45,873 nt of DNA, taken from the NCBI GenBank assembly GCA_017546505.1, contig JAFYWV010000084.1, positions 1 to 45,873 on the forward strand, written 5' to 3'. The notes under the pieces were generated by a model that ran no database searches, was not told the DNA's origin, and saw only the letters and a list, made by a program, of their open reading frames with translations. A program made the translations under genes and the position numbers. Source of the DNA: Bacteroidaceae bacterium. GTDB lineage: Bacteria > Bacteroidota > Bacteroidia > Bacteroidales > Bacteroidaceae. Shown one piece after another: positions 8,753 through 45,873 of the stretch (position 1 is the first letter of the stretch; each line of letters begins with the position of its first letter).

Positions 8753-9853
8753 TTAGTTGGTTTCGTCGGTTGCGCTGTAGCTCGAGCAGCTCATAATACG
8801 GAGCGTACGCTCGGAGTAAAGAATGGTTGCACCGTTGGTCTCGAACTTATAGCCGATAGTAGAGAACTGATTGAGAGGACCGCCGACCTGCGACTTGTCC
8901 TTAACGATCATTTCAAGCGCGCCGCCCTCGGGGTCGATGATACCGAAAGCGTCTTTACCGAACATATAGGTTGCGTAGGTTACGCCGCCCGCCTTGTTTT
9001 TGTAGGTGTCGCCGCCAAGGATAGGTGCGAATACGTTCTCAATGAAGCGGCAGTTGTGGAGCTCGCCAATCTCACCGTTGAAGATTTCATCAGGCTTTGC
9101 GTACTTGTGAGCCTCGATCCACTCCTTGGACTTGCGGAGATCATACGCAACAGAGGGATGAATAACGGCATAGTACTTACCGTTAATGGTAGGTACGCGG
9201 TTCTTCTTCATAATGGTAACAGCCTTTGCTACCATATCGGGAGTAAACAAGCTCATTACGGTGGCGCTTGCTTCCATTGCGGCGGGCGATGTAGGAGTGC
9301 CTGCTACCGTACCGTCTGCGAGAGTGATGTTGTCGCAGTAAAGTACGTTGGTGTTTACGAGAAGCGCGTCACGGATAAGGGTCTCTTGGGTCTCTGCCGC
9401 AGATGCGCCCATTTCCTCGGTTGCGCCGAGAATAACGTCGTCATAAGCGCGAAGCTCGAGAGTGTCGGAAACAGCGGCGTAAGTACCGTACTGATCAATG
9501 GAGCCGGTCTTGTAGCTCATACCGAACTTTTGACCGGTAGGAATAACACCTTCTTGAAGCTTGGTAGCCTTTGCAAAGGTGTTCCACTTTCTCCACTCAA
9601 CGGTCTTGCCGTGTCTCTTGGGAAGTGTCTGTTTCTTTGCGAACTGTGCATAGAACAGCTCTACGCGAGCGTTTTCAAGAAGCTCAGTATCGTAGAACGT
9701 CTTAAGCTCGCCGTTCATAGTGTTGACATTGTCAAACTCTGTGGTAGCACCGGTGTAAGCGTTGACATAATTGCCGGTAGCGTTTACTACATTACCGGCC
9801 TCAGCAAAAAGCTGAAGATTGAGGCGCATAAGCGCGTAAAAAATAGTTTTCAT
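8753..9853 (-). CDS. Major capsid protein, N4-gp56 family, with Prp-type N-terminal cleavage motif
   Basis: A 366-residue protein. The section from KTFYDTELLENARVELFYAQ through KTVEWRKWNTFAKATKLQEG and SMSYKT-like, QYGTYAAVSDTLELR and DDVILGATEEMGASA matches the N4-gp56 major capsid family pattern (HK97 fold). Residues 12-18 are LNLQLFA, identical to the motif near the start of the scaffold protein and nearly identical to the LNLQFFA site of ribosomal protein L27 in Bacillota, which Prp protease cuts. The phage Prp gene lies two genes upstream. Cleavage between the F and A would remove about 17 residues. The start ATG has AAGGAG upstream. Confidence 0.9.
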   Translation of the reverse strand: MKTIFYALMRLNLQLFAEAGNVVNATGNYVNAYTGATTEFDNVNTMNGELKTFYDTELLENARVELFYAQFAKKQTLPKRHGKTVEWRKWNTFAKATKLQEGVIPTGQKFGMSYKTGSIDQYGTYAAVSDTLELRAYDDVILGATEEMGASAAETQETLIRDALLVNTNVLYCDNITLADGTVAGTPTSPAAMEASATVMSLFTPDMVAKAVTIMKKNRVPTINGKYYAVIHPSVAYDLRKSKEWIEAHKYAKPDEIFNGEIGELHNCRFIENVFAPILGGDTYKNKAGGVTYATYMFGKDAFGIIDPEGGALEMIVKDKSQVGGPLNQFSTIGYKFETNGATILYSERTLRIMSCSSYSATDETN

Positions 9854-9910: not shown

Positions 9911-10921
9911 TTATCTGCTTCCGGGATACACTTTCTCCCCACGAGCCAATTTGTCGCGAAGGTCTTTCTTGAAAGCCTCTCGCTGTTCGCGGCTCGCTTT
10001 GCTGTAGTCGAATGTGGTTACGGAAGGTGCCTGACCGTTGGCTCCTGCTTCGTCGGGGCGTCTTGCTCCTGCCTGAATTGAGTTGGAGATTTTCTGCGCT
10101 GTCTTTTGCGCTGTTGCCTGCATAGCGGCTGTTTGGATCTCATTTCTGTGTACGGCATAATATGCATCTTCGACGCTGATACCTACGTTAGGAGAGGTCA
10201 TTCGGGCAAACGCGGGGTTTTGAAGCTCTTTGCGCAGATCGAAGTTAGGGAACACCTTTTTTAATGCCTCGCCTTGCTGTTCAAGTCCGATAATGTGATT
10301 TCTTATCTTCTGCTCCTGCAAGGTTCGCGCTTCTTCTCTCTGCTGTCTCTGCGTGTCTCGCTCCTGTTGGTCGATCTTCTTGGCGGTTTCAACGGACACG
10401 CCCATAGAAAGGGCCTTGTCCTCATAGTAGCCGTCGTCGTCGCTCACTTTCTTTGCAAGTGCCTCATAATCAATGTTGGCAGGGTCAAGGTTGTACTTTC
10501 TTGCAAGAAGCTCCAAAGCAGGAGTAACCTTGGCAAGCGCCTCTTCTGCGCCCTTTGCTGACTTAAGTCGAGACTGCACAGTGGCTTGCATCTGCTTATT
10601 GTACTCGGGGTCTGCCATAATCTCATCCCAACTCATACGAGCGGGTGTAGTAGCGGTCTTTGTTTCTTCCGTCGGGTTATCAGAAGCGGCGGCCTTCTCT
10701 GTGGTTTCCGTCGCGCTTTCTGCTTTCTGCTCGGTCTGTACCGCGCTTTCGGCAGGTTTGGCGGCGTATTTCGCCCGTTTGCGAATCTTATCTTCGGGAA
10801 CACCCAATTCCCTCAGTCTCTGTCCGGCGTCAACAGTCGCATTATCGCCCGATGTTGCGCCCTCTCCACCGCCGTCGCCATCTGCGAACAGCTGAAGATT
10901 AAGCAATTTAATGTTATTCAT
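9911..10921 (-). CDS. Scaffold protein with Prp-type N-terminal motif
   Basis: A 336-residue, highly charged protein (Ala/Glu/Lys/Gln rich) just upstream of the capsid gene, the classical scaffold position. It starts MNNIKLLNLQLFADGDGG, carrying the LNLQLFA motif shared with the capsid protein. Residues about 40-95 are low complexity (Thr/Glu/Ala/Lys), and 115-290 are helical. The C-terminus, about 300-336, is basic (SKASREQREAFKKDLRDKL), as expected for a capsid-binding tail. Start ATG with GGAGG nine bases upstream. It probably guides procapsid assembly and is trimmed or expelled after cleavage. Confidence 0.85.
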   Translation of the reverse strand: MNNIKLLNLQLFADGDGGGEGATSGDNATVDAGQRLRELGVPEDKIRKRAKYAAKPAESAVQTEQKAESATETTEKAAASDNPTEETKTATTPARMSWDEIMADPEYNKQMQATVQSRLKSAKGAEEALAKVTPALELLARKYNLDPANIDYEALAKKVSDDDGYYEDKALSMGVSVETAKKIDQQERDTQRQQREEARTLQEQKIRNHIIGLEQQGEALKKVFPNFDLRKELQNPAFARMTSPNVGISVEDAYYAVHRNEIQTAAMQATAQKTAQKISNSIQAGARRPDEAGANGQAPSVTTFDYSKASREQREAFKKDLRDKLARGEKVYPGSR

Positions 10922-33827: not shown

Positions 33828-36800
33828 TTAATGCCAAGGTGCTTCGTTTATTGTGCTTTGCGCCCAACCGAACGCATAGTAAAGGCTATCTTTTTGTCTT
33901 GCCGACAAACTCATAGAATTGATGTAAGCAAGTACCTTTGCCTTTTTGGAGCCGGATATTGCTTTTCCGTTCGCGTCAACGTCTGCCGAAACGCTTGAAT
34001 TATACTGCCAAATGTCATAGAATACCTCAGCCTCTATGCCGTAAGGTTCGCAGTAAGTGTTGTACGCATTCACGGCAGAATAGGAAATTCCTTCAAGGTT
34101 CGGGTGTTCTATCACGAAGGAAAGAACGCTCACCTTCTCGATCGCTTTCTCTTGCGTCATACCGCCGTATCGCATATACATTTCAATAGCGCGGCTCACG
34201 GTGATGTTGCCCGCCATAACCTCGTCGTCGATATCGTCGTATTCAATACCTGTTACGACAACAGCACTCCACTTGTTAACAGCCTCGGTGATCTCGTCGC
34301 TGTCCATATCGGTGTACTTTTCAAGCATACTCGTCGCCTGCGCCTTTGAGATCTCGCCGCCGCGATACCATTCGCCAACCTTGCTTTTTACCTTGCTGTA
34401 AATATCCTTTTCGGTGTAGCCGTGAGACGTGAGCTCAGACATAGCCGCCTTAAGGTCGCCGCCATTTCGAACAGCGTCATAGATGGAATCGTATCGGGAA
34501 TATCCGTCGCCGGCTTCCCAACCTGAAACGGTGAAGTACGCCTCGTCCTCGTTGTCAACAAGGCCCTGCTCGAGCAATTCGCTTGCGGCTTCATCGAACG
34601 TCAGATAACCGTCCTGATAAGCATACTTGATCTCGTTCTTATCGCCCGGATCGTAAGTCTTTACCTTAAGACTCGGTGCCATAGCTCCAACGATGTTGTT
34701 CCACGCGGTGATAATCTCGCGCGTTGCCGCCGCCATAGGAAGTCCCGCCATACCGGAAACCGCCTGCAATAGCTTGTAAATGCCGCCGTACCAAGTGTAG
34801 TTGGTATCCTCTCCGGAGATCTTATCATACAGTATCTCCACACCGTTTACAAGGCTGTCATACCATTGCATAAATACCGATTGTGGAGGATTGCCGTAGG
34901 TATCAACGCCGAAGATGGAGGCAAGTTCTTTGGCAAGATCGTAGAAGTCTGCAAGTATCGGCAGCTTGTTAATCGGCATAATCTCGTCAACAACGTTGCC
35001 GCCGAACGCTTCAAGCCACTTTTCAATAAAGGTCTCATAATCGTCATCGTCGCGCATTGCATCTGCCACCGCCTGTACTGCGGCCAAAATAACAGCGCTC
35101 ACAGCGTAAGAATATATTGTCCGTCCGATCATTCGCTTGTTCTTATCCCAAGCCTGCGAACGTGTCATACCGCGCTTTAAGTCAGCGTTGTACTTGTCAA
35201 CGGCGTCAATCACCATACTTGCGGTGGTCGTAGGCTCGCTCATAAAGGAACCGACAAGACGTGCAAACGCGCCTTTGCTTCGCAGAAACTCATTCTTCGT
35301 GAGCACGCTGTCAACAACCTGAGTCTTATAGATAACGTCCTCAAATACCTTTGTCACAGCCTCGTAGAAGCCATCGTCGCCCGGCTTAAGGTTCTGCTTT
35401 TTCTGAACCTCTGCTTTGCACGCGCTCCACATAGCCGCCCAAGTAATGGTGTCTGCCTGCTCAGCACCCCACATACCAACGTCACCAATCTTATCCATTA
35501 CTGTGGATTTATGCTTGATTGTATCAGTCAGTCCTCGGGAAATGTTTACGTCATAGAATCCGAGAGATTTCCACGCGGCAATACCGCTGTATTTTCTCAT
35601 TTCCTCGATATTCTGCTTAATAGCGGAAGGTCTCAACTTCAAGCCCTTCATAATAGATCCGTAGTCTATCAGAAGTGCCGCGCGCGTAATCGCCAAAGGC
35701 TGTTGTACTACTACGCGGAAGTTATATGCAACCTGTGCCATATTGTAACGGCGCGTCGCGTTCATTCCTATCGTATCGGTTGGAATGCCCTGTGCCTCGG
35801 TGCCGTTAAAGGCTTTGAGAATATTGAGTACAAAGGTCTCGGCATATCCTTGACGCCCGCTTCCGGGTCTCGATTCTTCAGGCACACCGTACACTCTCGA
35901 CATCTGCTCTCTTACACTATTCGCAACGTATCTGTTGCCGTCTGCGTCCTCGGTTTTCTGCTGATAGTTAAACCACTTGATCGCATCGAGTACCGGCAAA
36001 GCCATAGCGTTATACTGCGCCATACTTGCCATATGATTTGAAAATACGTCGAAAATACTGTAAACGACAATTCGATTGTTCGCCTTTTCGTTACGAGACT
36101 TTGTAAAGCTCATATTGAGAAGGGCGTACAAACTTGCCGCACTCGGCTGTTCGTCTGCCGTAGATTGAAGGTGTCTGCCGTCGGAGTTGATAGGGAAGTA
36201 CTTCTCGTTTGTGAACAGTTCTTCGCCAAAGCGTTTTATCGAAACGTAGTTACCCCACGCGCCGCCTTGCTCCTGCATAAACTTTTGCAAAGCGTCTGCG
36301 ACTTCTTTCTGTCTCGGGGTCAGCGCATTGACAATGTCGGCAATATTCTGTTCGGTCAGCGGGTGACCGTTATCGGAAATCTTCTTGCCGCCCTGCGTGT
36401 ATGTTGCAACGCGGAAGCCCTCACCAAGCATATGACGGAGCGAGTCAGGCTGTTTGGAAAGCTCGTAGAAGGACATTATATCGGAAACGCGCATTTTGAC
36501 GATCTTGCCGCCGAGATTGATTTCCTTGATCTCCTTCTCCCAATCGTTTACCTCTTTCGTGGTATAGGTCTTTTCAGCAAACTCAACGATCTTCTGCGTA
36601 TTGAAAGCGAGTTGCGCTTGACCGCGACGGAGGCTGTCATAGATTGCTACGCCGCCATTGCCGAAACGTTCAAAAGCAAACGCCGGTCGTATCTGTTGCC
36701 AAAATACGAAGTTAGAAACGCCTCCGGCTTTTCCGTCGTCGCTCGACATTGCCGAAAGAGCTTCAATAGAGTTGTCGCCTGCATTGTAAACGTGCTGATA

Positions 36801-39800
36801 CATCGCGTTCGCGTGGAATTTGTTTACCTGCGTAATGTACGCTTTTAGTACTCGTACCACAGAAGAAAGTTCCTTTAATTCCTCGCTCGTCATTCTGTTA
36901 ATGACAAACTCGCCGCTTTTCTCTCCTACAAGCTTTTGAATATCATCAATAAAGCTCTGCAACTTTTCCATAAAGTTCGGAGGCAAGTCGTTGTAGCCGG
37001 AATACATACCACTCACATCAATGTTTTGCTTGAGCGCTGATTTCAACGCATTAAGCCGCGTTACAAACTCCGTATCTGCCTTTGTTGCTTCTCCGCCTCG
37101 GAGCTGTTGTTTGCTCGTGAAGTCGATAGAAGAAAGGAAGGGAATAACGGTGTTTTTCAGCGCATCGGGAATGTGCTTTACAATATCCTTATTATTAGGC
37201 TTCAACACCCAATTTGTAAGCTCGGTCACATCGGCTTTGATACGCTCGCGGTACTTCTTGATCGCCGCAGAGTTTCGTGTACGGTCGCGCCAACGCTTCA
37301 AGATCTCGGCACCGTGTTGTCTTTCGGCTGTCTCAACAACCTTGCGCGCTTTCTTCAGCACGTTTCCAAGGACCTCTTTATCCTCAACCGAAAGCACCTC
37401 AGTACTTGCCGCCTTGATCTGTTCATCAAGAACGCGCATACGGTTCAATGTCTGTGCCGCCGCTTCTCGGTCTACGTTTGCGCCAAACTGTTGCTCCTTG
37501 TAGAGTCTACCTTGCTCTGCTCGATCGTCCTGCAAGCCCTCAAGCCTTGAAAGTCGACTTTTGAAGATTTGCACAGCGTCACGCTCTGCATCGGTAAGTT
37601 TACCACTCATTAGGAGTTCTTCTGCCGCCATAGCAAGCACTTCACGGTCGGTCAGCGTGTTTGTACGCTGTTGCTCTTGCTCGTCAGAGTTAAGGTATTC
37701 TCGGCTCTGCTCCTGAACGGTGTCCTCGGACACGCTATCAAGCGACTGTTCCTCTTTCGGGTTCAGGATCTCCATAACCTCATTATAGCGGGCGCGCTTT
37801 TGGTCAAGTTCTGCCTGCTTTGCGAAAGGCTCTGCAATCAGTTTTTCCTGTTCCGCAATATCCTTTTGCACTTCTGTGAGGTCGTGCTCCCACAGTTTCA
37901 CCCTTTCGTCAATACTTTCGGCAACACCTGCAAGCTGACTGATCATAAAGGTTGTATTACTCGGATAGGTTTTGAACGGATAGCCTTGCTTACCCACAAG
38001 CAAGCCGTTTATACCCTCGCTCGACTTTATCACGCGAAGCTCAAAACCTGCAAAATTACCGATGGTATTATAGCTGTCAAAAGTCGCTCTTGTTGTCGCC
38101 TCTGCCATCAGCGCGACGCCCGCTTCTTTCTTATCGGTGTACTTCTTGTTACCAACGGTAATAGAGAATTTCTCGTCAGAATAAGTGTCTTTTCTCGCGG
38201 CAATATCTGCTTTGCCGTTTGCAATCTGCTTTTCAAGAGACGCGATTTGACCGTTATCTCTCGACAAACGTTCCTTTGCGGAACGGACCGCAGAAATATG
38301 TGCTCGGTACAAGCTTTCCAACTTCTTAATAGCGGTGTCAAGCTCTACCTGTTCCATAATCAGAGGACTACCGGAAGCCAACGCCTTGACCTCGGCAGCA
38401 GATAGTGTTACTTCTCCTGTGTCCTCGGTCTCGCGGCCTACATTCTCACCGTTCATTACCTGATTGATGAAGTTCTGCTTTCGATCAAGAATATCCCAAA
38501 GGCGTGCATCAAAGCTTCCCTCTGTAACGTAGGTGTATTTAGATACTTCCTCGTTTATATTCTTCTGTCTGAAAGCACGTCCGTCTCTCTGCTCAACGTC
38601 GCCGGGTCTCCACGGTGCGTCAAGGTGGTGGATAGCAACAATACGTTTCTGCGCGTTCATACCAACGCCCATTTTACCGGTAGAGCCAATCAATACTCTT
38701 ACCTTGCCCTCGTTCACATCGTCAAACAGTTTCTTTTTCTTTGCGTCGGTGTCTGCCTCGTGAATAAAAGCAATTTCCTTTGCGGGAATGCCGCCCTGAC
38801 GCAAGCGAGTTTTAAGGTCGTCGTAGAGCTGTGCGCTCTCCATATCCGTTTCAATATCCTCGGTCGCGGTTGCGTTGTTATTGCTCGCGCCCTTCGGTGT
38901 TGCCATATCACAGAATATAAGCTGTGTTCCCTTGATACTCTTGCTCTCGTTATATTCCTTGAGAACATTGTCAGCGCAACGATAGATTTTACAGCCTTCC
39001 TCATACGGGAGGGAAGGGTCTATCATACGCTGAGTATAGGATATTTTTCTGCCGTCCGACGTGATCTTCAACATATTATCCTCGGAAGGATCTACGTTCT
39101 TGATATTGTCGGCACGCTGTTCAAGCTCTTTCATATAATCGCGTTGGAATTGTCCGGGCTCGCATACGACAACGTTTACCTTGCCGCCCTTCATCGTCGG
39201 GATCTTAAGCCCGGGAACGTCGGTAAGCACGTCAGCAAAGTTACGGAACAACAGTTGAAGCTCGCTCATATTCTTAAAGCGCGAAAAACTCTGTTTCACA
39301 CGGTAGCCTTGTCCACTCGGCTTGATCTCTACGCCGTTCACAACCTCGCCAAACTGTTTTGCCCACGCGTCAAAGGTGGAAAGTCCAAGCTGATTCAAGA
39401 GATCGGGTTGCAGATACTTCTGCATAATATACATTTCCGACATAGAGTTCATAACAGGTGTAGCAGTAGCAAATACGATACCGCGACCGCCGTTGAGTTG
39501 TTGCAGATAGCGTACCTTTGTATAAAGGTCAAAAGCACGTTTTGAACCGTCCTTGTTGCCAAGGCCTGCAACGTTGGTCATAGAAGTGGTGTAGAACAGA
39601 TTTTTGAAGTTGTGAGCCTCGTCCACAAAGAGAGAGTCAACGCCTAACTGTTCAAAATCTATATTGTCCTCGTCCTTCGCCTTATCGGTCAGCTTGTCGA
39701 TCTTTGCCTGCAAGGATTTACGCTTCTTTTCGAGGTCCTTTACAGACAACGCCTTATCGCCCTTGTCGGCTTTGGCTTCCTCGATAGCGGCAATAACGCT

Positions 39801-42800
39801 GTCGATCTGCTCCTGATAGAGCTGTCTTGTAAAATCGTCAGACATAGGAAGCTTCTCAAACTGTTCATAGGAAACGATAACTGCGTCGTACTCTCCGTTT
39901 GCGATACGGTTCATAAATACCTTTCGGTTAGCGGCCGTAAAGTCGGAGGCTTCCGCGACGAGTAGCTTCGCAGTAGGGAAGATATCCATAAATTCTTTGC
40001 CCCATTGTGCTACGAGCGATTTAGGAACGGCGAACATAGGCTTCTTTACAAGTCCGAGTTCTTTCAGCTTCATAGCCGACGCCGCCATTTCAAAGGTTTT
40101 ACCCGCCCCCACTCTGTGAGCGAGAAGGGTATTACCACCCGAAGAAATAACGCGCTGTACTGCGTCCTTTTGGTGTGGACGCAAAGATTTTTCAGCGTTC
40201 ATACCGTTCACGGTAAGATTTTCGCCGTTGTATTTCGGTGTAACAACAGAATTGAACACCTCGTTATAAAGCGTTGCGAGCTCTCCGCGTCTCGCTTCGT
40301 CACGCCACAGCCACTCCTGAAATTCTTTTTGAATGTTCTCGATCTTTTCGTTTGCCGCCGCAGTAGCGTCCTTATTGACTACAAAGGAGCCGTCGTCAAG
40401 CTTATCCTTGATTACAACGCTCTTGCTGTTCAGCATAGCGTCAAACAGGTCGAGGAAGGTCCTGCGCGAAGTACCCCACTTCTGCGTGTTCGCCGAGTTC
40501 ATTTTCAGGTGACGACCTTTCAGCTCTACGGTAAAGTTTCCGGTATCGCGGTTTCTCGTAACGTCAACGTCTTGTCTCCACTCGCTGTTTCGTCCACCGA
40601 GCATATACGCCGCAAAGTCGGAATATACGCTGTTCGGAATCCAAGGAGTACCGGGGTTGACAAAGATATCCTGATAGCCAACGTCCTCCGGCATAACCGA
40701 TTTGAGCGCTTCCACGTTGTTTTTATAATCAGCGTCGAGCGGTACAAGTGCCTCTGCATCGCGGAGCTTTGCGCGCACGTTACCGGAAAGATAGGTTTCT
40801 GCTGTTTCAAGGTCCCCATTACGATTTTTGAAAGCCTTGCGGCTGTCAATGAGTTCTCTTGTAACGTCTGCCTCTGTCTTGCCTGTGATTCTTGCAATAA
40901 GAGCAGTATCAACGCCGCCGGTCTGATTGACCGAAACGATAAGACCCTCTGCAACGTCCTTTGCCGACGTTACGGTGCGGTTAGGACTGATAGTGTTCTT
41001 TGAGAAAATATCCGCTTTGGTCGCCTTTTTGGTTTCGGGGTTCCAATTTTCAAGGGCGAAAAGGGAATAACGGTCGGGATCTTCGATAAAAGCGTTTCTA
41101 TTTGCCTGAGAATTGATAAATCCGTATTTCTTTACGAAAGCGTCGTAAACCTTATTCAACTCTGTACGCGCCTTTTTGATTTCGGTATCATTCAGCCCTT
41201 GCTGTTGATAGTTTATCAAATTACGCGCGGCGTCGCGGATTTCAAGCATAGCGGAAATACGCTCTGCGGCTCCATTCGCTTTGTTTATTTCAACAAGCTC
41301 GCCGCCTTTGTTCTGATATACCTTTCCTTCCTTTACGACAAGGCCATTTTCTTTGGTCTTTTTGCTCGCTCTCTCCACGGCAAAATTGGTTTTCTCTCGG
41401 CTAAGTGTCGCGGGATATTCCATCTTGCCCTCGATATGAGAGAAAGCCTCGCGGATTTGGTCGGCAAGACTGCCTCGGTCGGTTAACGGCTTGTAGGTAA
41501 CTGTCGTTTCTCCGTATCTTCCTCTTGTCGCAGTAGGAACGCCTAAAACCATTTCCGGGTGATTTTCAAAGTAATTATTGGCGTATTCCCCTGTTTTATA
41601 ATTGTAAGGTGCTTCGAGGAAATCCTCGCCTGAATAAGTTGTATTTGCGGCTCTCTTTTTGAGAATGAGAATGTCTGCTACAACATCAGTACCTGCGTTA
41701 CTCTTGAAAGCGGAATTGGGCAAGCGGATAGCTCCGAGAAGATCAGCCTTTTGCATAATATAGCGGCGCACCGTATTGTCTCGGCTGCTCATTGTATAAG
41801 AGGACGTAATAAACATTACGATACCGCCCGGACGCACCTTATCAAGCGCTTTTGCAAAGAAATAGTTGTGAATAGCGCTTGTTACCTTTTTCGGATATGC
41901 CTTGTCATAAATGGCTACTTTGCCGAAAGGTACGTTACCAATAGCCACGTCCATATAATTATCGGGGATATTAGCCTTTTCAAAGCCCTGAATACGCACG
42001 TCAGCGTTCGGGTAAAGGTGCTTTGCAATAAGACCGGTAATGCTGTCAAGCTCCACCATCGTCCAACTCTTGACCTTTGAGGTCATAGCCGTAGGCATAG
42101 CCCCGACGAAGTTACCAACGCCCGAGGAAGGTTCAAGCATACGACCGCCATTAAAACCAAGGCGTTCAAGCCCACCGTACATAGCCTTTATAACCGGAAT
42201 ATCTGTATAGAAGGCATCTGTTGTGCTTGCTCTTGCGGCGCGAAATTCCTCGTCAGTCAGCAATTCCTTCAGCTCGGTATATTCCTTGCTCCAATCCGAC
42301 TTTTTCTCATCAAAGGCATCGGACAGACCGCCCCAACCAATGTACTTGGAGAGGATAGCCTGCTCTGCTTCGGTTGCATATCTGCTCTCCGATTCAAGCT
42401 GTTTTACAAGGCGAATAGCTTCAATATTAGCCTTATATCTCGATTTCTCGCCGTTGGGCAGGTCAAGACTATCGCCAATAACGAAGTTGCGGCCCTTCGG
42501 TTGTTCGGTGGACTGTTGCGCAACCTGTTCGGTTACTTCCTCGTGAAGTGCTTCTGCCGCTTTGCCACCGTCATTTATGTCGGTCGCAGAATTATCAGTA
42601 GCCTCGCGCTTGTCAATGGCTTCCTTTACTTGGTTCCATTTTGTAACATCGCTGTCCTTGCCCAATTCTCCGATAATCACCGGAGCGAAAGTGGGTAGAC
42701 CCTGCTTGTCGTAGATATCTACCTGAATGATATTCTTCTTGGCAGACATCTTGTTGATCTTAAGCCTATATCCTTTCTCCTTGGCATAAGATTCCGCGTC

Positions 42801-45800
42801 CTTATATGATGTTATCCGATCATCTCGTCGTAGATCTCCGCTCTGACGATCTCCCTCGCTTGATTCTCTGCGAGTCTGTTCACCGATATCAGATCGCACA
42901 TCATCTCGTCGAGTCTCTTGTCCTCGTTCGACAGAATCTCCCACAGCGTCCCCTCGTTGTACATCTCTCGGTACATCTTCGGTTTGTGGTTCATCCAATA
43001 CTCGTGTATCTCCCGACCTATCGGGCTCAGGCTGTTGTATTGTGCCTCGGTTATCAGCATTTTCGACATTTGTGTTTGCCTCCTGTTTATTGTGATTAAA
43101 CCATTCGTTAGCTACTTGATCGCCGTATCCTGCGTCAATATACTGCTGTAAAACCTTCTTTGCTTCCTCGTCGTAATTGACTTTTTCAAAAATCTCTTTG
43201 ATAGTCGCGGAAGGATTATCTTCTACAAGCACCTCAATGAGATCACTTGATGCCACCGTACTGTAAGCAATAGGGGATTTCTTACCCGGAATATGCCACT
43301 CTACGTCGTGACTTGCCCAATCGCTCTTTTTTGTGCGTACAGGCTTTGCCTTTTCCGCTTTAGGCACTTCCGTTTCAGCAACCGTTTCAGCAACCGTTTC
43401 GTCAACTGATTTTTTCGGTGCGTTTTCTTTCTTGAACTGCTCGTGAATAGACGCAAGCTCGTTTATGTATGCATCGAAATCGTGGAAGGCATTATCAAGG
43501 TTTGCTTTTAAATCCCCGACGATTTGGCCGGCGGAGTAATGCCCATATATTGTAGCATTGATTTCATCATATATTTTTTCTATCTGATTTGCGGTTATAT
43601 CGAATAGGTCAATGCCATAATTATTTGCGGGTCGTTCAATTAGACGTTGCCCCATATCAGAGGTTGTATCAAGCATATCGGGTGTGCGCGCAATGAAATC
43701 CAAATACGGTTGGAATTGTAACTGTTTCATAACGTGCGTAGCTTCGTGTGGCACGATCATACCGCGATATTTTTCGTCGAGTCCTTCGCGTATATATATT
43801 TTGCCACCATTAGAGAACGCTTGAACGTTTCTATCCCAAGCGGATTTCTTGACTACATATCCTTCTATGCCGTATTCTGCAAGTTTTGCATATTCTTCGG
43901 CTTCTGCTGTCCCTTTTTTGGGAACGATAAACGAGTCTTCCGAAAATCGTTTTTCTGTTTGGCTTAACTCTCCTCGTCGTCCCCGAGGTCTATCAGGAGC
44001 TTGTCGAATTCCTCTATTTTCTTCCGATACTCCGGATCTGTCTCCATCTTCTTCTTGTGATCCTTCAGAGATTGAATTTCCTCCGGGGTGAACGGTCTCG
44101 GTCCTTTGCTCTTGTTCTGCATTGTTAATACCTCCGTCAGTATTGTTATTGCTTTCGGCTTCTGTTGCCACGGTCATTTGGTAATTTTCAACCGCTTCCA
44201 AAGCAACCTTATCAAAGAGTTTCACAATGTTTTCGACGTACTTCACGCTCTCGCCCACTTGTTCCTTGAGGGCGTTTGCCTCACGAGAGGAATTATGACC
44301 GATAGAATTGAAATATTCTTTCAAATCAGAAACAAACTCCTTTAGCATACCAAGAAGCTTATCGAAAATAGTTTTATGTTTTGTTGCGAGCTCTTCCACA
44401 AAATTCGCGTCAGGCAGAATGTCCGTCATAGCTTCGGCAACCACTTCTCGGCTTGCCTTGTCATAATCCATTCCTTCGCTCTGCGCTTGTTTCGTTTCAA
44501 TAAGGTCGTTTACGTTTTCTCCGCGCTCTGTAAGGGTATCAAATACCACTTTTCTGAACTCATTATACCATATCGGATTCCATTTTTCAATAAAATGGCA
44601 AAATTCGTGAGAAAAAGTGCGAAGCATTGTGTATTTTGCAAGGTCGTTTACACCCTTGATATTAGCAAGTCCTGCGTTAATATCAATGTAGATCGTGTCC
44701 TCGCTCCACTTGAATTTGCCTTGCGCTCCCTCAAATGTGCCGTCGGCGTTTGGTTCGGATTTGAACAGTACAATATCAATGCCGGTAGCCTCTGCATAGG
44801 TGGAAAGGAGCTTATACGCTGTATTCTGCGTATCGTTGAACGTGCTCTTGAGATCAGAGATCGTCACGCCCTCGCCCTTTACGGTGCCTTTTCTTCGGCC
44901 TGTTTTGCCGTTTGCCTTTGCCTTGTTTGCCGTGTCCTGCTCTTTTGCGGTGGTAGTGGACGCATCTGCGCCTGCCGCGTGTGCAAGCTCGCGTTGCTTC
45001 TCGGTAAGATATGCCGTCGCCTCGCTGTTCATAGCGTAGGAAAGGGAAACACCGCTTTTGCCCATATCATAGGCCACTTGATACGCCGCGTCATACTTTG
45101 CTACGTCCTGTCCCTCGGTATAGGTGCTGACCATTGCCCCCGCCTGCGCTCCGTATTTCTCCGACGCGCTCTCCAAGGTGACGCCGCTTTCTTCTGTTTG
45201 TGAGACTTCCGTAGATGCCTCAATTTTCGCTTCTGCCACATTTTCCTGCGCGGTGGGGTTCTCGGTCGCGGGAATGGTTTGTGCTTCTTGCACGTTGCCC
45301 GCCTGCGCGGTTTCAATGTTCTGCGCGGTAGCCGTTTGAGGTTCCTGCGGAGCCGTCTCGGTCTCTGCAATCAGTCGACTGTATTCTTCGGGATTGATTC
45401 TATCGGTGCCGATACGCTCTGCCCAAGCAGAAGAATATCCACCGGAGTTGATGTTTTCGGTGTTCAGCTCGTTAGCCACGCGCTGACCGAATTTACTGTT
45501 GCTTATAGTACGCTTTTCTGCGTAGGTGAGTTTTTCGCCGCTTGCCTGTTTTGTAAGAGCTTCAGCAATAGCCTTTACGTCGCCTCTTTCTCCAAGCTCG
45601 ACAAGGCGGTTTTCTGCCGCGCTACGAATGGAAGTCGTGTCATTTTTGAGCATTGCAGACTCGTTAGCATCAACAAGTCGGTTGATCTGATAGCCCGACA
45701 CATTCTTTCCATTATCAAGTCTTGCCTGCATTCTTTGAGCGTGTGCGTTTCCGGGGTCAATTTCAAGAGACTCGGTAACAAGGTCTTGCACGTTATCTCC

Positions 45801-45873
45801 GTAAATATTCTTTGCATCGATGTTAGATGCAATGTTTTGGACTGTGGTGTGAACGCTACCGCTTACACCGCCC
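33828..45873 (-). CDS. Giant polyvalent protein: two zincins, N6-DNA methylase, SNF2 helicase (DarB-like)
   Basis: This is the main part of the 4,508-residue protein; it is open at the window edge and continues at position 141. Full-length numbering: zincin motif HEFCH near 916; second zincin motif HEATH near 1203; methylase motif I (LEPSSGVGNF) near 1737 and catalytic NVPF near 1807; SNF2 Walker A (AHRVGAGKT) near 2409, DEAH near 2577, ATATP near 2625; helicase C-terminal motifs with WRPGDVEQRDGRAFRQ near 2914; long coiled coils about 3000-3300; a hydrophobic segment (AVSAVILAAVQAVADAM) about 4010 to 4030; and short helical repeats at the C-terminus. Fused methylase and SNF2 helicase occur in P1 DarB and in the polyvalent proteins of phages and conjugative elements, which are delivered with the DNA to counter restriction (family knowledge). 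Ejection from the virion is inferred. The NVPF motif differs from NPPY/NPPF, and methylase activity is untested. Disordered linkers near 43964-44122 and 42812-43069 are overprinted by small genes. A strong terminator follows the stop. Confidence 0.93.
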   Translation of the reverse strand, partial: GGVSGSVHTTVQNIASNIDAKNIYGDNVQDLVTESLEIDPGNAHAQRMQARLDNGKNVSGYQINRLVDANESAMLKNDTTSIRSAAENRLVELGERGDVKAIAEALTKQASGEKLTYAEKRTISNSKFGQRVANELNTENINSGGYSSAWAERIGTDRINPEEYSRLIAETETAPQEPQTATAQNIETAQAGNVQEAQTIPATENPTAQENVAEAKIEASTEVSQTEESGVTLESASEKYGAQAGAMVSTYTEGQDVAKYDAAYQVAYDMGKSGVSLSYAMNSEATAYLTEKQRELAHAAGADASTTTAKEQDTANKAKANGKTGRRKGTVKGEGVTISDLKSTFNDTQNTAYKLLSTYAEATGIDIVLFKSEPNADGTFEGAQGKFKWSEDTIYIDINAGLANIKGVNDLAKYTMLRTFSHEFCHFIEKWNPIWYNEFRKVVFDTLTERGENVNDLIETKQAQSEGMDYDKASREVVAEAMTDILPDANFVEELATKHKTIFDKLLGMLKEFVSDLKEYFNSIGHNSSREANALKEQVGESVKYVENIVKLFDKVALEAVENYQMTVATEAESNNNTDGGINNAEQEQRTETVHPGGNSISEGSQEEDGDRSGVSEENRGIRQAPDRPRGRRGELSQTEKRFSEDSFIVPKKGTAEAEEYAKLAEYGIEGYVVKKSAWDRNVQAFSNGGKIYIREGLDEKYRGMIVPHEATHVMKQLQFQPYLDFIARTPDMLDTTSDMGQRLIERPANNYGIDLFDITANQIEKIYDEINATIYGHYSAGQIVGDLKANLDNAFHDFDAYINELASIHEQFKKENAPKKSVDETVAETVAETEVPKAEKAKPVRTKKSDWASHDVEWHIPGKKSPIAYSTVASSDLIEVLVEDNPSATIKEIFEKVNYDEEAKKVLQQYIDAGYGDQVANEWFNHNKQEANTNVENADNRGTIQQPEPDRSGDTRVLDEPQTEDVPRDVQRGDAVGDSVERGQETRRDDVRSDIGEQTRRESSEGDRQSGDLRRDDRITSYKDAESYAKEKGYRLKINKMSAKKNIIQVDIYDKQGLPTFAPVIIGELGKDSDVTKWNQVKEAIDKREATDNSATDINDGGKAAEALHEEVTEQVAQQSTEQPKGRNFVIGDSLDLPNGEKSRYKANIEAIRLVKQLESESRYATEAEQAILSKYIGWGGLSDAFDEKKSDWSKEYTELKELLTDEEFRAARASTTDAFYTDIPVIKAMYGGLERLGFNGGRMLEPSSGVGNFVGAMPTAMTSKVKSWTMVELDSITGLIAKHLYPNADVRIQGFEKANIPDNYMDVAIGNVPFGKVAIYDKAYPKKVTSAIHNYFFAKALDKVRPGGIVMFITSSYTMSSRDNTVRRYIMQKADLLGAIRLPNSAFKSNAGTDVVADILILKKRAANTTYSGEDFLEAPYNYKTGEYANNYFENHPEMVLGVPTATRGRYGETTVTYKPLTDRGSLADQIREAFSHIEGKMEYPATLSREKTNFAVERASKKTKENGLVVKEGKVYQNKGGELVEINKANGAAERISAMLEIRDAARNLINYQQQGLNDTEIKKARTELNKVYDAFVKKYGFINSQANRNAFIEDPDRYSLFALENWNPETKKATKADIFSKNTISPNRTVTSAKDVAEGLIVSVNQTGGVDTALIARITGKTEADVTRELIDSRKAFKNRNGDLETAETYLSGNVRAKLRDAEALVPLDADYKNNVEALKSVMPEDVGYQDIFVNPGTPWIPNSVYSDFAAYMLGGRNSEWRQDVDVTRNRDTGNFTVELKGRHLKMNSANTQKWGTSRRTFLDLFDAMLNSKSVVIKDKLDDGSFVVNKDATAAANEKIENIQKEFQEWLWRDEARRGELATLYNEVFNSVVTPKYNGENLTVNGMNAEKSLRPHQKDAVQRVISSGGNTLLAHRVGAGKTFEMAASAMKLKELGLVKKPMFAVPKSLVAQWGKEFMDIFPTAKLLVAEASDFTAANRKVFMNRIANGEYDAVIVSYEQFEKLPMSDDFTRQLYQEQIDSVIAAIEEAKADKGDKALSVKDLEKKRKSLQAKIDKLTDKAKDEDNIDFEQLGVDSLFVDEAHNFKNLFYTTSMTNVAGLGNKDGSKRAFDLYTKVRYLQQLNGGRGIVFATATPVMNSMSEMYIMQKYLQPDLLNQLGLSTFDAWAKQFGEVVNGVEIKPSGQGYRVKQSFSRFKNMSELQLLFRNFADVLTDVPGLKIPTMKGGKVNVVVCEPGQFQRDYMKELEQRADNIKNVDPSEDNMLKITSDGRKISYTQRMIDPSLPYEEGCKIYRCADNVLKEYNESKSIKGTQLIFCDMATPKGASNNNATATEDIETDMESAQLYDDLKTRLRQGGIPAKEIAFIHEADTDAKKKKLFDDVNEGKVRVLIGSTGKMGVGMNAQKRIVAIHHLDAPWRPGDVEQRDGRAFRQKNINEEVSKYTYVTEGSFDARLWDILDRKQNFINQVMNGENVGRETEDTGEVTLSAAEVKALASGSPLIMEQVELDTAIKKLESLYRAHISAVRSAKERLSRDNGQIASLEKQIANGKADIAARKDTYSDEKFSITVGNKKYTDKKEAGVALMAEATTRATFDSYNTIGNFAGFELRVIKSSEGINGLLVGKQGYPFKTYPSNTTFMISQLAGVAESIDERVKLWEHDLTEVQKDIAEQEKLIAEPFAKQAELDQKRARYNEVMEILNPKEEQSLDSVSEDTVQEQSREYLNSDEQEQQRTNTLTDREVLAMAAEELLMSGKLTDAERDAVQIFKSRLSRLEGLQDDRAEQGRLYKEQQFGANVDREAAAQTLNRMRVLDEQIKAASTEVLSVEDKEVLGNVLKKARKVVETAERQHGAEILKRWRDRTRNSAAIKKYRERIKADVTELTNWVLKPNNKDIVKHIPDALKNTVIPFLSSIDFTSKQQLRGGEATKADTEFVTRLNALKSALKQNIDVSGMYSGYNDLPPNFMEKLQSFIDDIQKLVGEKSGEFVINRMTSEELKELSSVVRVLKAYITQVNKFHANAMYQHVYNAGDNSIEALSAMSSDDGKAGGVSNFVFWQQIRPAFAFERFGNGGVAIYDSLRRGQAQLAFNTQKIVEFAEKTYTTKEVNDWEKEIKEINLGGKIVKMRVSDIMSFYELSKQPDSLRHMLGEGFRVATYTQGGKKISDNGHPLTEQNIADIVNALTPRQKEVADALQKFMQEQGGAWGNYVSIKRFGEELFTNEKYFPINSDGRHLQSTADEQPSAASLYALLNMSFTKSRNEKANNRIVVYSIFDVFSNHMASMAQYNAMALPVLDAIKWFNYQQKTEDADGNRYVANSVREQMSRVYGVPEESRPGSGRQGYAETFVLNILKAFNGTEAQGIPTDTIGMNATRRYNMAQVAYNFRVVVQQPLAITRAALLIDYGSIMKGLKLRPSAIKQNIEEMRKYSGIAAWKSLGFYDVNISRGLTDTIKHKSTVMDKIGDVGMWGAEQADTITWAAMWSACKAEVQKKQNLKPGDDGFYEAVTKVFEDVIYKTQVVDSVLTKNEFLRSKGAFARLVGSFMSEPTTTASMVIDAVDKYNADLKRGMTRSQAWDKNKRMIGRTIYSYAVSAVILAAVQAVADAMRDDDDYETFIEKWLEAFGGNVVDEIMPINKLPILADFYDLAKELASIFGVDTYGNPPQSVFMQWYDSLVNGVEILYDKISGEDTNYTWYGGIYKLLQAVSGMAGLPMAAATREIITAWNNIVGAMAPSLKVKTYDPGDKNEIKYAYQDGYLTFDEAASELLEQGLVDNEDEAYFTVSGWEAGDGYSRYDSIYDAVRNGGDLKAAMSELTSHGYTEKDIYSKVKSKVGEWYRGGEISKAQATSMLEKYTDMDSDEITEAVNKWSAVVVTGIEYDDIDDEVMAGNITVSRAIEMYMRYGGMTQEKAIEKVSVLSFVIEHPNLEGISYSAVNAYNTYCEPYGIEAEVFYDIWQYNSSVSADVDANGKAISGSKKAKVLAYINSMSLSARQKDSLYYAFGWAQSTINEAPWH
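42812..43069 (-). CDS. Nested gene, 85 aa, TnpV-like, inside the giant gene (+1 frame)
   Basis: An 85-codon frame starts at ATG 43069, nine bases after AGGAGG, in the +1 frame of the giant gene. The product is helix-rich. Its core (LSPIGREIHEYWMNHKP, then an LWEIL stretch, then NQAREIVRAEI near the end) resembles the TnpV family of small proteins from Bacillota mobile elements, which share a PIGxxxxxYLxxHRPxLY-like start and an xxxARExV end. I judge this from memory of the family, not a search. TnpV function is not established. The overlapping giant-protein sequence here is a low-complexity Arg/Asp/Gln/Glu linker just before the methylase region, so constraint may lie mainly on this nested frame. 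Its length is somewhat short for TnpV. It may make a separate late protein. Confidence 0.65.
   Translation of the reverse strand: MSKMLITEAQYNSLSPIGREIHEYWMNHKPKMYREMYNEGTLWEILSNEDKRLDEMMCDLISVNRLAENQAREIVRAEIYDEMIG
43964..44122 (-). CDS. Nested small gene, 52 aa, inside the giant gene (+1 frame)
   Basis: A 52-codon frame starts at ATG 44122 with GGAGG eight bases upstream, and ends with TAA at 43964. It lies in the +1 frame relative to the giant gene. The product begins MQNKSKGPRPFTPEEIQSLK and ends DLGDDEES. It is charged and predicted helical, with an ordinary protein-like composition. In the same stretch the giant protein is a low-complexity linker rich in Glu, Gly, Arg and Asn, between its two zincin regions. 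A good ribosome site, a natural ATG and the contrast in composition support a real overprinted gene. I do not recognise the family. It could be a chance frame, but the second nested frame at 42812-43069 has the same design and the same relative frame. Expression with the late operon is expected. Confidence 0.62.
   Translation of the reverse strand: MQNKSKGPRPFTPEEIQSLKDHKKKMETDPEYRKKIEEFDKLLIDLGDDEES
45733..45873. repeat. Terminal overlap, right copy (identical to 1-141)
   Basis: This is the second copy of the 141-base overlap. Merging the copies gives a circular genome of 45,732 bp. With the junction closed, the frame of the giant gene is continuous: 1622 plus 11,905 bases equals 4,509 codons including the stop. 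A true packaged direct terminal repeat cutting the middle of a 13.5-kb gene is possible but unlikely. Confidence 0.95.

Follow-up and report, generated by a model that had tools for sequence, protein, structure and literature searches.

Does a reading frame of 52 codons that lies wholly inside a giant phage-type gene, and that is preceded by a ribosome site of its own, represent a separate gene or a fortuitous opening in a permissive frame? Annotation commonly discards open reading frames that sit within longer genes, and because of this conserved small phage proteins can stay invisible. The window, i.e. the whole stretch of DNA analyzed here, is an entire contig of 45,873 bases from an assembly of 2.6 Mb in 130 contigs, and its phage-type matches comprise a P22-like portal, a terminase large subunit, and capsid, tail, internal virion and endolysin-type proteins. 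The sequence comparisons presented below make it very probable that 43964-44122 on the minus strand is a real protein-coding gene, contained entirely in the giant phage gene and read in its +1 frame.

The giant gene and the frames nested in it

The features on which the analysis centers are the following:

33828..45872, minus strand: giant polyvalent-type gene with two HExxH motifs, a methylase and an SNF2 helicase
44157..44996, minus strand: zincin-like region 1 (HEFCH), used as the query for relatives and as the single-frame control
43734..43748, minus strand: HEATH motif of zincin-like region 2, downstream of the 52-aa nested gene
43964..44122, minus strand: probable nested gene of 52 aa in the giant's +1 frame, from the ATG at 44122 to the TAA stop at 43964
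44131..44135, minus strand: GGAGG ribosome site, with an 8-base spacer to the ATG at 44122
42812..43069, minus strand: second nested gene, 85 aa, TnpV-like, in the giant's +1 frame
43079..43084, minus strand: AGGAGG ribosome site of the TnpV-like gene

The giant frame runs for 4,014 codons without a stop and is still open at the contig end. That end, at 45872, truncates the gene, leaving less than 1 kb upstream of the zincin region, where most relatives have about 2 to 3.6 kb. Pfam models match SNF2-rel_dom (2.4e-11), Helicase_C (2.2e-5) and Eco57I (1e-5), and the giant hence combines an SNF2 helicase with an adenine methylase in one chain, as polyvalent proteins do. The two HExxH motifs, HEFCH at 44609-44595 and HEATH at 43748-43734, were seen in the translation, the Pfam search of the giant at E 0.01 being without a peptidase match.

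Translation of the minus strand from 44122 to 43964 gives MQNKSKGPRPFTPEEIQSLKDHKKKMETDPEYRKKIEEFDKLLIDLGDDEES, followed by a stop. The initial annotation, which gave no strand, had described a 52-codon frame with the arrangement GGAGG-8-ATG here, in a Glu/Gly/Arg-rich linker between two zincin regions; both the frame and its placement are borne out, with the strand being minus and the HEFCH and HEATH motifs flanking it within a Glu/Gly/Arg-rich stretch of the giant. The giant's +1 frame is common to this ORF and the 85-aa ORF at 42812..43069.

Expectation from a single genome

The level of chance was gauged by 2,000 synonymous shuffles of the giant gene, scored for ORFs of at least 50 aa with a ribosome site and an ATG. 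At least one such ORF arose in 843 of the 2,000 shuffles (42%) and at least two in 195 (10%), nearly all of them in the +1 frame. Within this genome alone the 52-aa ORF is unremarkable. Since shuffles so often yield such ORFs, and nearly always in +1, two cases sharing a frame are weak evidence by themselves, and the earlier claim that the common frame offset makes them independent support does not hold: +1 is simply the permissive frame. Statistics from the single genome were for the same reason rejected as support for the nested gene. A scan by codon usage ranks the two nested ORFs first and second among the window's 37 +1 segments of at least 35 aa; one +2 segment outscores both, the +2 rows being confounded by a background built on +1 only. 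What rises above chance in the 52-aa ORF is, as judged from its relatives, its conservation.

Relatives of the giant and conservation of the 52-aa family

Viral contigs searched with the 52-aa protein yielded four loci, three of which have a homologous ORF in the +1 frame of a giant, two of these three being one sequence by their match figures. Further giants, found by searching with the zincin region, came both from viral contigs and from contigs of genomes, the latter mostly Clostridia assemblies and one labelled Treponema. The same region matched 1 of 395 genomes of the class, namely the window's own, had no match in plasmid records and gave one weak match in phage records. Removal of repeats left 36 loci, to which profiles of the nested families were applied. 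Entries that had been refetched or had identical match figures (L013, L015, L020, L022, L024-L029 and later re-fetches) were counted once. Of the 36, 34 bear a giant gene; L043 and L044, with zincin ORFs of only 323 and 483 aa, were left out, while the short ORFs of L037 (821 aa) and L070 (1,113 aa) were counted as giants. The zincin rows of L018 and L019 are identical, so that the 34 giant-bearing loci amount to 33 distinct ones.

The 52-aa family is present in ten of the 34 (the window, L012, L014, L016, L021, L023, L030, L032, L033 and L034), as matched by a profile that was derived from these same ten sequences. All ten copies lie on the giant's strand in its +1 frame, the homologues being 33-76% identical to the window copy, with an invariant core T-D-x-x-Y-R. 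Every copy has its own ATG and stop, and nine carry GGAGGT, L030 having AAGGA instead. The initial annotation had staked the gene on survival of its start, ribosome site and frame in relatives, and these do survive, ATG and frame throughout and GGAGGT in all copies except one. The Thr-Asp-Gly-Gly that the giant frame encodes around the ribosome site is also mostly conserved, and because of this GGAGGT alone cannot separate the two frames. In a tree of the zincin region the carriers of the 52-aa gene cluster, requiring 3 changes against a shuffled mean of 8.9, with none of 500 shuffles as low.

Beyond the nested copies, no 52-aa homologues were found in viral contigs, nor freestanding ones in phage records; among 101 and 399 related genomes they were absent except for the window's own and a DnaA-like match, and the DNA of the nested region had no match in phage records. 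Several candidates were set aside: three phage records at E >= 0.7, L005 (a partial match within a 607-aa frame), and L046 and L050, which we read as a DnaA-like carboxy end and a helix-turn-helix-like phage protein, respectively.

Which frame selection sees

In the +1 arrangement the second position of a nested codon is the third position of a giant codon, and the two frames thus predict different patterns of change. Changes were counted over all pairs of 10 copies of the 52-aa gene, 17 of the 21 TnpV-like copies and 18 zincin rows. By giant positions 1, 2 and 3 the control, zincin region 1, shows 11,898, 9,668 and 23,947 changes (18 sequences), and the 52-aa gene 1,308, 1,101 and 861 (10 sequences, 45 pairs). 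The giant's third position is the least changed inside the nested gene, the reverse of the control. In four separate pairs third-position changes make up 64 of 249 in the 52-aa gene versus 515 of 870 in zincin region 1 (Fisher 4e-21), and in the window and its nearest relative L012 alone 4 of 23 versus 128 of 182 (p=1.3e-6).

The pattern was also followed along an alignment of 11 giants in 54 fifty-codon windows (2,700 codons), with a four-pair set that differs from that of the Fisher test, one including L023-L032 and the other L030-L032. A third-position share of at most 0.33 by the four-pair count occurs in three of the 54, of which one falls on the 52-aa gene and the other two on the TnpV-like gene; the remaining ones range from 0.42 to 0.83. 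At the level of sequence, the 52-aa frame is shown to be under protein-coding selection, and the codon-position pattern together with conservation in ten giants supplies the selected inner frame expected of a nested gene pair.

The outer frame is likewise maintained across the overlap. It is free of stops across the 52-aa gene in all ten giants, and when each nested protein was randomly recoded with the codon usage of the window's giant in 3,000 trials, the giant frame stayed open in at most 1 of 3,000 for the window copy and at most 1.4% for the other nine. Because random recoding so seldom leaves the frame open, keeping it open comes at a cost. No constraint on the residues of the giant across the 52-aa gene was detected with two-fold codons at the same nested residue (16/64 versus 104/354 in the control, p=0.55); the same test on the TnpV-like gene gave 27/149 versus 190/629 (p=0.003). 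The plain reading of these sequences is that at the 52-aa gene the giant frame has to stay open, and that it is the nested protein that is conserved.

The TnpV-like gene and other nested genes or candidates

The 85-aa protein of the window matches TnpV (Pfam PF14198) with E 3.9e-5 and 24.0 bits, below the cut-off of 27; since the PF14198 gathering score is missed, the gene is termed TnpV-like and not a TnpV member. In its family 15 of 17 members match TnpV at E <= 0.1, the best at 2e-6. Copies of this family lie inside the giant, in its +1 frame, at 21 of the 34 giant-bearing loci. By our count AGGAGG precedes 17 of these 21 copies, the start in L066 being uncertain; L012, L064 and L072 have a shorter ribosome-site core, and no ribosome site was found for the L073 copy. 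Tblastn of the protein against plasmid and phage records at E 0.01 gave no match. Weak matches of the TnpV profile inside zincin region 1 were regarded as chance. In the midpoint-rooted zincin tree carriers of the TnpV-like gene and other giants fall on both sides of the deepest branch. Because the gene resembles an already known family, it may have been captured rather than born by overprinting.

Further nested frames were recognized in giants, the first two families in giants that lack the TnpV-like gene:

L067:9705-10044 and L074:10215-10554, giant's +1 frame: 113-aa nested family
L035:6297-6654 and L069:11106-11463, giant's +1 frame: 119-aa nested family
L036 and L037, close relatives, giant's +1 frame: 71-aa nested family
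L036:6569-6782 and L037:8724-8871, 9390-9591 and 9963-10176, +1 frame: small nested ORFs
L017:8865-9012: 49-aa nested ORF with AGGAGG, just after zincin region 1

The pair L067/L074 has weak ribosome sites and displays a coding pattern in the nested frame (22, 21 and 51 changes in 120 codons, a few of which precede the start; control, 71, 52 and 125 in 272 codons). The single giant ORF of L037 holds three small nested +1 ORFs, one of them common to L036, and the 49-aa one among the three matches an Rv0078B-related antitoxin family weakly (E 0.0025, below cut-off). Single-case +1 ORFs number one each in L017, L065 and L071 and two in L037. Codon usage, too, gives high scores to those of L017 and L071; the single candidates of L065 and L037 are based on an ORF and a ribosome-like site. 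The L017 ORF occupies the linker corresponding to that of the 52-aa gene, yet does not match the 52-aa family.

Taken together, one or more nested +1 genes or candidates occur in 30 of the 34 giant-bearing loci. Of the other four, L018 and L070 break off shortly past the zincin region; in L062 and L068 a scan showed ribosome-site-like ORFs that were unconvincing and not counted as genes. In two pairs of giants, exchange at a single site can be followed in the giant frame. The giants of L073, with the TnpV-like gene, and L067, with the 113-aa gene, have near-identical residues up to AENNH-x-LEER, after which the nested genes differ; the flanks KYGTT...VVIDKTGPQ and DDGVYAT...HPA-x-LVESAAMAAV are common to L069, with the 119-aa gene, and L071, with a 136-aa ORF of its own. 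Phmmer searches with the 113-, 119- and 136-aa proteins at E 0.001 found no link between the nested proteins in either pair. The proposal that such linkers act as a reservoir for nested genes gains support from these counts and from the two cases, because in each case flanks that match between two relatives border nested genes with no relation to each other. Judged from their sequences, the linkers of the giant genes seem to be slots in which hidden small genes of different kinds are accommodated. We lean, with some reserve, to the wider view that the linkers of giant injected-type phage proteins would be exchangeable docking slots, in which the same flanks receive unrelated +1 cargo encoding early effectors made together with the giant. 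As a separate observation, the linkers of L021, L035, L038 and L062 have a recurring small domain after zincin region 1 (the contig of L021 has FTITDDAENKITSIKFDGKP, and the others are similar).

Alternative explanations

One objection is that the 52-aa ORF arose by chance, the +1 frame being permissive and a Gly-Gly encoded as GGA GGT mimicking a ribosome site. Both the 42% of shuffles with at least one such ORF and the conservation of the giant's own residues around GGAGGT speak for it. Homology across ten giants and the inverted codon-position pattern speak against it, as does a longer other-frame ORF (142 aa, 40526-40954) that shows an ordinary third-position share of 0.49-0.64, and we regard this account as extremely improbable. 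Frameshifting might alternatively carry ribosomes into the nested frame, which would then furnish an alternative linker of the giant chain instead of a separate protein. A position between two domain regions and a length that varies among relatives would suit such a role; against this, all ten copies have their own ATG and stop and nine have GGAGGT, which renders frameshifting very unlikely. A free 52-aa protein encoded by a nested gene remains the preferred reading, and the two further proposals bear on its function and its origin.

As to function, the protein could be an antitoxin-like factor of the epsilon type that, in the course of infection, neutralizes a toxin or a defence protein of the host. 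The one lead to a function is a match of the family profile to epsilon_1 (6epg) over 31 positions around TD-x-x-[FY]-RK-x-x-E with E=0.0035, a likeness too weak for membership; short charged helices reach such scores by chance, the same few letters recur in a DnaA carboxy end and in a phage protein, and the window copy has no Pfam family at cut-off, so we think this identification unlikely. As to origin, separate genes could have been fused into the giant, with the small genes lying between them becoming nested when stops were lost; the nested genes would then be older than the linkers. This fits their occupancy of linkers between domains and the match of 15 of 17 members of the second nested family to TnpV, which was described from transposons. 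None of the examined loci showed an unfused arrangement in which these small genes lie among domain genes that are still separate; the short zincin ORFs of L043 and L044 have no match to the nested families, and tblastn found no TnpV-like relative in plasmid or phage records. We consider fusion a possible origin, though one we would not bet on; it concerns origin and is compatible with the nested-gene reading.

Predicted product and its implications

For the 52-aa gene, ribosomes would start at the internal GGAGG-ATG on the mRNA of the giant and release a free, highly charged, Glu/Lys-rich and probably helical protein of 52 aa. The Glu/Gly/Arg composition of the linker would mostly be the other-frame reading of codons rich in GAG, GAA and AAG, which yields Gly, Arg and Glu. 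The linkers may then be viewed as slots whose small cargo genes are expressed along with the giant, and the 52-aa product would act early in infection alongside this injected-type protein, possibly against host defences. Its most likely role, still uncertain, is that of a small accessory or counter-defence factor. In Pfam no family reaches its cut-off with the window copy (Com_YlbF, PF06133, attains 19.8 bits, below 23.9, and matches 1 of 10 members), and NCBIfam and PHROGs gave nothing usable.

The nested gene would explain the odd Glu/Gly/Arg composition of the giant's linkers, and if the slot view is true, Arg/Gly/Asp/Glu-rich linkers of such proteins could be a signature of hidden genes more generally. 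Were linkers of giant proteins commonly to hide genes, more should be findable by scanning for a least-changed third codon position. The locus would also exemplify one sequence serving two proteins, of which one frame may need only openness.

Comparison with known systems

Polyvalent proteins of phages and conjugative elements, predicted to enter the host with the DNA, were described by Iyer et al. 2017 (PMC5512222). The giant resembles those in the account given there in its very large size, multidomain architecture, zincin-like HExxH motifs and SNF2-adenine methylase pair. The main text of that paper has the words 'overlapping' and 'TnpV' nowhere and 'nested' twice, both times of a hairpin fold; relative to polyvalent proteins as its main text describes them, second-frame genes in linkers are a new feature. 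Among the literature matches listed, in a search reaching few subscription papers and no bioRxiv preprints, no title or start of an abstract concerns nested genes in polyvalent proteins, and the overlap terms located in the text of PMC13299392 belong to two gene variants of a terminase and to the title of a reference. The second nested family of the window is akin to TnpV, with 15 of 17 members matching PF14198, and differs from it in that 21 copies sit inside giant genes in the +1 frame.

A close parallel to such an arrangement is offered by Rz1 of phage lambda, whose reading frame differs from that of the enclosing Rz. The likeness lies in a small gene that a phage carries within another one, out of frame with it and with its own start. 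Rz1 is embedded in another phage gene (PMC5295617, PMC6139136). Together Rz and Rz1 make up a two-part lysis complex. In the present case, by contrast, the outer gene is giant and multidomain, and the genes nested in it differ between relatives.
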